Shown here in pieces: positions 3,804 to 9,610 of a DNA stretch of 21,934 nt. The stretch is taken from the IMG/VR virus record IMGVR_UViG_3300028025_001227, positions 1 through 21,934 of that record. One strand, written 5' to 3'. Source of the stretch: a virus. The first letter of the stretch is position 1. Each line of letters begins with the position of its first letter. Under the pieces are notes generated by a model. The model had not been told where the DNA came from and searched no databases. It saw only the letters and a program-made list of their open reading frames with translations. The position numbers were made by a program, and so were the translations under genes.

Positions 3804-4033
3804 GCTTCACCTCTTGTTTGGATTGCGTGTATGACACGGCCCGCCGTTGATTCAAGCGTACCAAGAAGCGCAATATGCGCCCTGCGTACACACGCCTCAC
3901 GCTCTTTAGCTGCTACCAGTTTGGCAAAGGCTTCAAGTTGCTTGTTGTTTGCCGCCCACATACCTTGACAGTCACCACAGTCTTCAAAAAACCCCGCTTG
4001 TTTAGCTATCTTAATGATTTCATCTTGTGTCAT
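3800..4033 (-). CDS. Small conserved phage protein, copy A of a paralogous pair
   Basis: A 77-residue protein starting MTQDEIIKIAKQAGF. It contains LEAFAKLVAAKEREAC and ends in AIQTRGEA. The same architecture (MxQDEIIxxA, LExFAKLVAAKEREAC, AIxxRGEA) recurs in the gene at 4769-4981, with strong DNA identity around 3889-3925 versus 4848-4884, so the two are a duplicated pair. Such helical proteins are common in phages of Proteobacteria and have no known function. Copy A has an extra CGDCQGMW segment. The codons of the terminal RGEA contain GGTGA, which acts as ribosome site for the next gene. Confidence 0.78.
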   Translation of the reverse strand: MTQDEIIKIAKQAGFFEDCGDCQGMWAANNKQLEAFAKLVAAKEREACVRRAHIALLGTLESTAGRVIHAIQTRGEA

Positions 4034-7760: not shown

Positions 7761-7863
7761 CTAGGTCGCCTGTCAGTTCAAGTGCTTTGTTGATTGTGTC
7801 TAGATTATAAGACATTCCATCGCGTGTTTTGTCAAGAATTTGGATTGCCTGCAAATAATTCAT
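7651..7863 (-). CDS. Hypothetical protein, 70 aa (C-terminal half overlaps next gene)
   Basis: The first 37 residues (MNYLQAIQILDKTRDGMSY, then NLDTINKALELTGDLDGF) look like a typical short phage helical protein and are the only explanation for 7761-7863. The rest (SIRATSGASDKDGFAEGLD... GARLGR) is read in a different frame over the 57-residue gene and is less convincing. Its ATG overlaps the replication gene's stop (ATGA) and lacks a ribosome site, so it is probably coupled. Alternatives are a true 110-base overlapping pair, or a once shorter gene that lost its stop. Confidence 0.6.
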   Translation of the reverse strand: MNYLQAIQILDKTRDGMSYNLDTINKALELTGDLDGFQPSIRATSGASDKDGFAEGLDCLRQETGARLGR

Positions 7864-8684
7864 AGTGTGTTGTTTTTCAGCAAGTCAGCGATTCGCGCCT
7901 GAATCTCTGCGTTTGGCTTAACAGCACGTTTGCTGTCTTCCTCAATCTTTCGCAACGCAGCGTCTTGGTTTGGCGGTGGTGGCGTAGTGATGTGGGCTAC
8001 ATCGTATTTGTTCGCAAAAGTCTGGCGCTCGTTAATTTCAAAAACATCCTGCCAGTTGCTTGTAATTGACTTCTCAAGAACAGCCTGAATGTTTTGACCA
8101 TTTGCACGAAAACGGTCAAGTTTTTTAATCAACAGGTCAACAGCATGGTCAGTTGGTACGCGCTTCATTTTCTTTCGCATAGCCAAAAACGCTTGCCAAG
8201 TTTCCAATGGCATCCAATCTGGCAAAACAAGAGCGTCAGCGACCTTTTCTTTTTTAGATGTAGATGAAGAAGAAGATGTAGATGAAGGGGTTGGTTTTTG
8301 CTTATCCTCAAGGTTAACCTTACCCTTATCCATCAAGGCAGGGTTTCCACCCTTAGAACCACCCGCAGCCCTTATCTGGCGTAGGTTTTCATCACGAATC
8401 ATGCGTTTTGAGTAAATCACACCTTCGTCAGTTGTTTCATACACACCAGCCTGTGAAAGCTCCAAAAGCCAATCAGCAACAACCTCTGCATTATCCCCAA
8501 CCATACGGGCAAGGTTCGAAGGAAGGATAACCTTATCTCCAACCTTTAAGTGTCCGTAAGGTGAACCTTCGTGCATGAAACAAATCATGTCCATCCACAA
8601 ACCACGCGCACCTGTTGAACAAGAGCGCAAAGCAGTGTCACGCAACCAATCGCTTGGGTAAAACTGAAATGATGGGCGTTTCAT
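7860..8684 (-). CDS. Replication initiator-like protein
   Basis: The ATG at 8684 is chosen over one nine bases earlier because GAAGGA is correctly spaced only for it, and it overlaps the preceding stop as ATGA. The 274-residue protein begins KRPSFQFYPSDWLRD, a DUF1376-like winged-helix start found in phage replication proteins, with GVIYSKRMIRDENL at the end of that domain. A serine-rich linker (PTPSSTSSSSSTSKKEK) follows. The C-terminal domain LPDWMPLETWQAFLAMRKK... (SITSNWQDVF later) is common in phage initiators. By family and position it should bind the origin and recruit the host helicase, like lambda O; no helicase or loader gene is visible nearby. Confidence 0.78.
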   Translation of the reverse strand: MKRPSFQFYPSDWLRDTALRSCSTGARGLWMDMICFMHEGSPYGHLKVGDKVILPSNLARMVGDNAEVVADWLLELSQAGVYETTDEGVIYSKRMIRDENLRQIRAAGGSKGGNPALMDKGKVNLEDKQKPTPSSTSSSSSTSKKEKVADALVLPDWMPLETWQAFLAMRKKMKRVPTDHAVDLLIKKLDRFRANGQNIQAVLEKSITSNWQDVFEINERQTFANKYDVAHITTPPPPNQDAALRKIEEDSKRAVKPNAEIQARIADLLKNNTL

Positions 8685-9172
8685 ATCAAGCATCCTTCGT
8701 GAATTTTTCTTTTTGCTTCAAGGTAGGCTTGATGTGCTTCTTCTACCGTATTAAACAATCCAAGATGTTTTACTTTTCTGTTAAACGAAATCTGAGCGCA
8801 AAATTTTCCAAATTTCATGCTTACGCCAAGAACTCCAAGAGCATTTGTTTTTCTGGCTTGCCTAATGTTTTGATTGTTTTTTTGACTATTTACAAGTCTC
8901 AAATTTTCAATCTTGTTGTTATCACGATTCCCATCAATGTGGTCAACATCAAGGTCATTCAATGAACCGTTATGAAATACCCATATCAATCTATGAACAT
9001 AAAATTTTTCCATGTCCACTCTTGATACCCTGTATCCGTAAAAGTTAACAAATCCAATTGGCTCGCCTTTTTTAGATTTGCCACGTTGTTTTTTGTTTAA
9101 CAAAAATCCATCTTTGTAATCAAAGAGTTGTTTTAACCTGTCTTGAGTAGGTAATTCTCGTCTGTACTTCAT
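8681..9172 (-). CDS. HNH homing endonuclease with AP2 DNA-binding domain
   Basis: The HNH_3-type nuclease core is at about residues 58-100: YVHRLIWVFHNG, then VDHIDGNRDNNKIENLRLV with the catalytic-type His and Asn residues. An AP2-like DNA-binding domain follows (GVLGVSMKFGKFCAQISF, then HLGLFNTVEEAHQAYLEAKR). The start at ATG 9172 follows GGGGAGCAAA. Free-standing HNH-AP2 proteins are mobile homing endonucleases of phages. The gene is A/T-rich compared with its neighbours and is wedged between the MazG-like and replication genes, with its own structured leader (9172-9288). It may also act on that adjacent element. Confidence 0.9.
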   Translation of the reverse strand: MKYRRELPTQDRLKQLFDYKDGFLLNKKQRGKSKKGEPIGFVNFYGYRVSRVDMEKFYVHRLIWVFHNGSLNDLDVDHIDGNRDNNKIENLRLVNSQKNNQNIRQARKTNALGVLGVSMKFGKFCAQISFNRKVKHLGLFNTVEEAHQAYLEAKRKIHEGCLI

Positions 9173-9288
9173 TTTGCTCCCCAGCAAAAAAGCCCACAGG
9201 GACAGTCTCGGCTTGCGCCGTGGGGAGACACCGCTAGTACGATGCAGACTGCCCTTGTGGGCTTACTAGATTATCGCTCCCCAGCGAT
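9172..9288 (-). ncRNA. Structured leader/terminator-like RNA element before the HNH gene
   Basis: Read on the minus strand, this gap folds extensively. Arms 9264-9246 and 9208-9190 form a 19-base-pair stem with one mismatch and one G-U, ending in a run of six T, like an intrinsic terminator. The inside holds a CGGC-GCAA-GCCG hairpin with a GNRA loop. CTAGTA (9269-9264) and TACTAG (9239-9234) can pair instead, in competition with the long stem. Two small hairpins with identical GCTGGGGAGC cores lie at both ends (9288-9273 and 9189-9172), the second overlapping the ribosome site of the HNH gene. CTCCCC at 9227-9222 can pair with either GGGGAG. Function as terminator, switch or independent RNA is an inference. 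Confidence 0.6.
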
Positions 9289-9304
9289 TTAAAAATTTAG
9301 TGTA

Positions 9305-9610
9305 TCACACTTCTTTAATGAACAAGCCGTCAGCGTTCAGATAACCCTTGCGGTCTTTTATTTCGTTGTAAGCGCCTTGAAAGCACGTTACCAAGTCCAA
9401 GTCAGCAATAGCACAGCCCATGATTAGCGTCACCAAAATGTCGCCATAGGCATCAGCCATAGCAGCGCGGTCGTTGTTGCGGATAGCGTCAATTAGTTCG
9501 TCAAGTTCTTCTTGCGTCTTGATTGCTTGGGCAGCGGGTGTACTGTTTTGCACAATGCCACGGGCTTCACCCCATTGCACAACCTTCATTTCAATTTCTG
9601 AATAGCTCAC
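9305..9610 (-). CDS. MazG-like nucleotide pyrophosphohydrolase
   Basis: The start is a GTG at 9610 with GGAGCTCAA upstream and a GTGA overlap with the HTH gene. The 101-residue all-helical protein carries the MazG metal-binding motifs QEELDELIDAI (E35, E38) and MADAYGDILVTL (D53, D57). Members hydrolyse (d)NTPs to monophosphates and PPi. Phage versions are proposed to clean the nucleotide pool or to lower (p)ppGpp and keep the host in a growth-like state. It is the second gene of the early minus operon, fitting an early metabolic takeover function. Confidence 0.85.
   Translation of the reverse strand: MSYSEIEMKVVQWGEARGIVQNSTPAAQAIKTQEELDELIDAIRNNDRAAMADAYGDILVTLIMGCAIADLDLVTCFQGAYNEIKDRKGYLNADGLFIKEV

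Follow-up and report, generated by a model that had tools for sequence, protein, structure and literature searches.

What is a densely folding stretch of RNA doing directly before an HNH endonuclease gene, and does it belong to the endonuclease or to the phage? The locus that raises the question lies in a virus record of 21.9 kb, IMGVR_UViG_3300028025_001227, which is called the window below. A first-pass annotation of its letters had left the choice between a riboregulator, a conserved structured RNA and the mobile element's own sequence. We suggest that this ~104-nt RNA almost certainly represents a previously undescribed phage family, whose fold and membership are both well supported by sequence comparison, and that the endonuclease is one client of the RNA among several.

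Results

The RNA element and its surroundings

The genes at the site follow the order Cro/YdaS-like, MazG-like, RNA, HNH_3 endonuclease and O-like replication initiation protein, all phage early genes; the features below are on the minus strand. The MazG-like pyrophosphohydrolase gene (9305-9610; Pfam MazG) lies 5' of the RNA and the HNH_3 homing-endonuclease-like ORF (8681-9172, 163 aa; Pfam HNH_3, 2.3e-15; PHROG 99, HNH endonuclease) lies 3' of it, with its stop codon overlapped by the start of the replication initiation O-like gene (7860-8684; PHROG 678). From family membership alone, the HNH_3 protein would be expected to cleave at specific sites and to home. The same phage carries a second probable homing endonuclease (ORF 1848-2456), with NUMOD3 and a GIY-YIG-like start, and a tRNA-Asn (GTT) gene (1130-1207) adjoins a terminase-like ORF.

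The copy of the RNA in the window occupies positions 9289-9186. A 5' hairpin (P0) is followed by an 18-layer stem (P1) built around two hairpins (P2 and P3), and then by a U-run. Two tertiary helices complete the fold: PK2 pairs the P0 loop with the P2/P3 junction, and PK1 pairs the strand 5' of P1 with the P2 loop, the strands in the window being CTAGTA, TACTAG, the P0 loop and TCTCCCCA. P0 (ATCGCT-GGGG-AGCGAT, 9273-9288), a covarying stem at the inferred 5' end of the RNA, contains CTGGGGAG; its loop supplies the 5' strand of PK2 (TGGGGA, 9278-9283), which in every member complements the junction strand and changes in concert with it across subfamilies. The 5' strand of PK1 (CTAGTA, 9269-9264) is supported by covariation, as are P2 (CATCG-TACTAG-CGGTG, 9229-9244), whose loop TACTAG (9239-9234) is the 3' strand of PK1, and the 3' strand of PK2 (TCCCCA, 9221-9226). 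The stretch CTCCCCA in the junction is the complement of the P0 hairpin; both the 5' hairpin and this complement are absent from the first-pass annotation. P3 (CGGC-GCAA-GCCG, 9209-9220) is the GNRA hairpin previously described, and in the alignment its stem and loop differ among members. Folding energy and covariation together support both strands of P1 (9246-9263 and 9191-9208), the terminator stem, which had been reported as 19 layers (9264-9246/9208-9190) and is indeed present with one A.C mismatch and one G.U pair, ending in six T (9186-9191) that complete the shape of an intrinsic terminator, a GC-rich stem and then a U-run on the transcribed strand. A T-run of this kind is found in almost all members. 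As anatomy, then, the earlier view of a terminator placed directly before a gene holds. The 117 nt fold to -58.1 kcal/mol, as against -39.6 +/- 3.6 for shuffled sequences (z -5.15; none of 200 as low). The site was missed by a simple promoter/terminator scan, which looks for a TTGACA-like box and a loop of 3-8 nt, whereas the loop here is branched.

Upstream, an extended -10-like box, TGATACACT (9299-9307), overlaps the mazG stop codon and lies about 4 nt further upstream than is usual for the TATAAT-like box found across the family. Downstream lies a second CTGGGGAG hairpin (TTTGCT-GGGG-AGCAAA, 9173-9188), also missing from the first-pass annotation, whose loop and 3' arm are the Shine-Dalgarno sequence of the HNH gene (GGGGAG, 9182-9177). 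By our reading, about 19 of the 26 subfamily-A sequences have such a Shine-Dalgarno-type hairpin.

Search for relatives

Relatives were sought with an exact 21-mer and then with gapped patterns, which find only copies resembling the first ones and which led to IMG/VR contigs and one Burkholderiales contig. Each pattern match was inspected, 26 distinct close sequences were kept, and covariance model R1 was built from them. R1 matched two copies not previously seen, a second one in the L008 contig (46.9 bits, E 6e-8) and a prophage-like one in another Burkholderiales genome (60 bits). Subfamilies B and C came from model iteration and one more scan, and subfamily D was found by R3 in the record of L067. 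We count about 50 copies, carried by viral contigs and by two Burkholderiales genomes; they come mostly from environmental contigs, include many close relatives and form four sequence subfamilies (A-D) with one fold. The covariance search of homologues that the first-pass annotation had proposed yields a family, with compensatory changes that extend to the P1 stem. Model scans of 399 genomes of the order Burkholderiales gave only two carriers, and genome samples of the class and phylum gave none besides the same two. The L008 contig has its two copies on opposite strands (1035-1138, minus, subfamily B; 3884-3987, plus, subfamily A), each ahead of a different HNH gene.

In Rfam 15, at gathering and relaxed thresholds, the window matched only a tRNA, its best weak match being BcKCsr2 at 15.7 bits against a cut-off of 40, and L130, L140, L131 and L088 gave no match. 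BLAST searches of the variants against cultured phages, and of one variant against plasmids, returned no relatives of the RNA, the weak matches being to HNH coding starts or to chance, and we found no description of a ~104-nt RNA family of this kind in the literature searched.

Most of the extra pattern matches were judged on inspection to be due to chance and were dropped (L031, L033, L036-L038, L040, L042-L044, L047, L049, L063, L066, L068, L073-L083, L085, L086, L089-L091, L093-L116 and several of L132-L151). The element of L028, L032, L035, L039 and L050 was also rejected as a member, since it shares GCTGGGGAGC with the family but not the fold and is unmatched by the models. It is an unrelated, strongly folding block of ~110 nt between two GCTGGGGAGC copies inside CTTGGCA...TGCCAA palindromes.

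Covariation

In a MAFFT alignment of the 26 sequences made without reference to structure, 98.3% of the pairs in the fold, PK1 included, are standard and 13 have changed on both sides; none of 500 shuffles did as well, and slid controls gave 28-44% paired cells. With 36 distinct sequences (alignment A3), the full fold with both pseudoknots reaches 98.0% paired cells against 83.7% when shuffled, with 23 doubly changed pairs and 188 cells against 47 (0 of 500 shuffles), counts that lean towards the nested helices because A3 was fitted to them. PK1 and PK2 lie outside that model, and both are 100% paired in A3. No single line of evidence is stronger than PK2. Representatives of each of the four subfamilies show exact complementarity between P0 loop and junction although the letters differ, with six Watson-Crick pairs each (UGGGGA/UCCCCA, UUGGUC/GACCAA, UUGGCG/CGCCAA and UUGACG/CGUCAA). 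P0 itself varies in the same manner (AUCGCU/AGCGAU, AUUGCU/AGCAAU, AUCUCU/AGAGAU, AUCACU/AGUGAU), P3 occurs as CGGC-GCAA-GCCG or AUGC-UUUU-GCAU, and in L088 PK1 is CGAGU/AUUCG. P1 keeps its 18 layers without a gap in 36 of 36 sequences. The strand is fixed by the frequent G.U pairs, as at column 40-94. The suggestion of a conserved structured RNA is hence strongly supported, every helix showing compensatory changes.

Genes behind the RNA

Upstream of the element, the sole conservation is a TATAAT-like box at -11 to -6, present in most copies, and wherever position 2 of P0 is aligned it is a purine, as it would be at a start site. Three subfamily-C members (L131, L136 and L149) have no -10 box, which fits transcription from the operon. 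Almost all members have the terminator-like end, and the RNA is mostly co-directional with its operon. The distance from P1 to the start codon is 17-25 nt in 31 of the 32 members scored automatically and ~19-28 nt by reading in the remaining copies, or ~17-28 nt overall, even though the genes are unrelated.

In the window, as in most copies of subfamily A, an HNH gene stands directly 3' of the RNA, and the endonucleases include HNH_3 proteins with AP2 or NUMOD4, zinc-loop HNH proteins and the PHROG 374/3377 HNH group. By our count at least 13 copies, three of them directly before replication genes, precede no recognised endonuclease, although several downstream ORFs of 104-127 aa match no family and may include an unrecognised one; three contigs break off within the RNA or within the gene that follows it. 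Primosomal or replication genes follow the RNA in L130, L140 and L159, a DNA helicase gene in L134, a MazG-like ORF in L088 (by our reading; its PHROG matches are unnamed) and ORFs without assigned function in L131, L136 and L145-L149. A conserved 104-aa ORF with no PHROG match lies directly behind the subfamily-C RNAs of L131, L136, L147, L149 and L152. In L130 the order mazG, RNA, replication gene is that of the window minus the HNH insert, and in L140 the order is cro-like gene, RNA, replication gene.

RNAs that are 97-100% identical adjoin unrelated proteins or endonucleases: L001 and L003 have identical RNAs and proteins 45% identical, and L056 and L057 have RNAs 99% identical and unrelated proteins. 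The RNA is therefore what stays constant and the endonuclease what varies, and the copies that precede no recognised endonuclease indicate that the RNA is not a component of the HNH system. The notion that the fold is the mobile element's own sequence thus describes the RNA-endonuclease cassettes of subfamily A, but not those other copies.

Discussion

Because the fold stays the same while the genes behind it change, the RNA probably acts as a built-in gate on gene expression. We somewhat favour the view that the RNA is a cis-acting leader, in which the terminator would stop most transcripts and the folding of PK1 and PK2 would gate read-through; this view is favoured by the terminator end, by a spacing to the start codon that stays constant before unrelated genes and by an operon position that is mostly co-directional. 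Transcription would start at P0, driven either by the local -10 box or from the upstream operon, and P0, P2, PK1 and PK2 would fold first; indeed, the computed fold of a nascent RNA of 70-85 nt already contains the PK2 pairing. The long P1 would then close and, with the U-run, stop most transcripts before the Shine-Dalgarno sequence. As PK1 puts strain on the base of P1, read-through would become more likely when the PK1/PK2 fold is stabilised and termination more likely when P1 closes. In the window phage the gate would determine how much HNH endonuclease is made, the hairpin over the Shine-Dalgarno sequence of its gene would add control at translation, and the endonuclease would have captured a leader that in relatives precedes replication genes. 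In subfamily A a second CUGGGGAG hairpin, with the loop of P0, often holds the Shine-Dalgarno sequence, and we speculate that this loop, being the same, could pair with the junction strand too.

The CTAGTA/TACTAG helix had been taken for a rival of the terminator stem, giving at least two exclusive folds. Its strands are present, but they form the conserved, covarying pseudoknot PK1. In a rigid A-form model PK1 is impossible with P1 fully closed, and ~1-2 basal P1 pairs must open, so that the tertiary fold is in competition with the base of the terminator; the model is coarse and may err by several Angstrom, and the strain it gives is mild. The folds are thus not wholly exclusive, and our own first idea that they were was weakened by the geometry run. 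Nearest-neighbour energies (~-13 to -16 kcal/mol for the lower P1 against ~-2 to -4.5 for PK1) suggest that the default is termination and that read-through would need a partner; without ligand or protein, the RNA may always terminate. The diversity of the downstream genes also counts against a leader, being unusual for one tied to a single signal.

That diversity, together with RNAs 97-100% identical beside unrelated proteins, would be expected if the element were a stand-alone, trans-acting phage small RNA gene running from promoter to terminator, with incidental neighbours and homing endonucleases that merely travel along. The private -10 box of most copies, at a fixed distance, fits such a gene, as do the inferred start at P0, the terminator end and the compact molecule with protected ends. 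A target-binding RNA would not, however, account for a spacing of 17-28 nt that is uniform across all copies, nor for the three members without the box, and the family has no invariant unpaired region resembling a common seed, its loops being taken up by the pseudoknots; we regard this explanation as possible but considerably less probable than a leader. Less likely again is a strong terminator of the ordinary kind, placed at operon junctions, in which the pseudoknots would do no more than stabilise the 3' end and nothing would switch. Its shape, the much greater stability of the lower P1 and the copies that follow an operon's last gene and face a convergent endolysin agree with it, yet a plain terminator needs no P0, P2 or P3, no pair of covarying pseudoknots and no stem of constant 18 layers across subfamilies.

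Fully paired loops are typical of kissing complexes, and with PK1 sterically strained inside one molecule when P1 is closed, PK1 and/or PK2 might instead form between molecules, in dimers or rings like those of phi29 pRNA loop-loop pairing. PK2 is reachable within a single molecule, though, and a role in nascent RNA is suggested by the terminator end and by the location ahead of start codons, so that we consider oligomers highly unlikely. Most improbable of all is an RNA cofactor or guide of the HNH endonuclease, similar to the omega-RNA/HEARO type: the RNA does lie directly 5' of HNH genes in the window and most subfamily-A copies, but it also precedes unrelated endonucleases and non-endonucleases, the protein is HNH_3 and not IscB, and Rfam gave no HEARO match. 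It is the unrelated downstream genes that lead us to reject it.

A bolder reading, which we offer only tentatively, is that the RNA is a new class of phage RNA switch: a metabolite or a phage or host protein would stabilise PK1/PK2, strain the terminator stem open and turn on replication genes, and unrelated families of homing endonucleases would have captured the switch to time their own expression. The family adds to the small set of phage RNAs one backed by strong covariation, with two covarying pseudoknots and ~50 copies. That unrelated homing endonucleases have captured it more than once suggests a ready-made expression gate that selfish genes put to use again, and its position before replication genes in several phages leads to a testable idea on replication timing.

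Several known systems resemble the element in part. Like the HEARO/OMEGA RNA associated with IscB, it is a structured RNA directly 5' of an HNH-domain gene; unlike it, it is not bound to one protein, the window encoding only an HNH_3 nuclease and other copies preceding unrelated genes, and the HEARO covariance model did not match the window RNA. With transcription-attenuation riboswitches and leaders it shares a structured 5' leader, a conserved structured domain before a gene, and an end shaped like an intrinsic terminator; it differs in having no known ligand and no Rfam match, in that the closing stem of the fold is the terminator, and in its diverse downstream genes. The early-operon position in L140, with control of termination at the RNA level, offers an analogy with lambda tR1 and HK022 put RNA. 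The closest known case is that of the RNA structures controlling the homing endonucleases of T4, which are similar but not homologous. In phages, RNA structures and terminators limit the homing endonucleases I-TevI, segB and Aeh1 mobE, the last with a terminator (PMC2988022), and a hairpin over the Shine-Dalgarno sequence, as at 9188-9173 here, together with a terminator and a phage homing endonuclease, is common to both (PMC2988022). The T4-family structures, however, are single hairpins, with the mobE and segF terminators inside the coding region, whereas here a multi-helix, double-pseudoknot RNA of ~104 nt stands before many unrelated genes.
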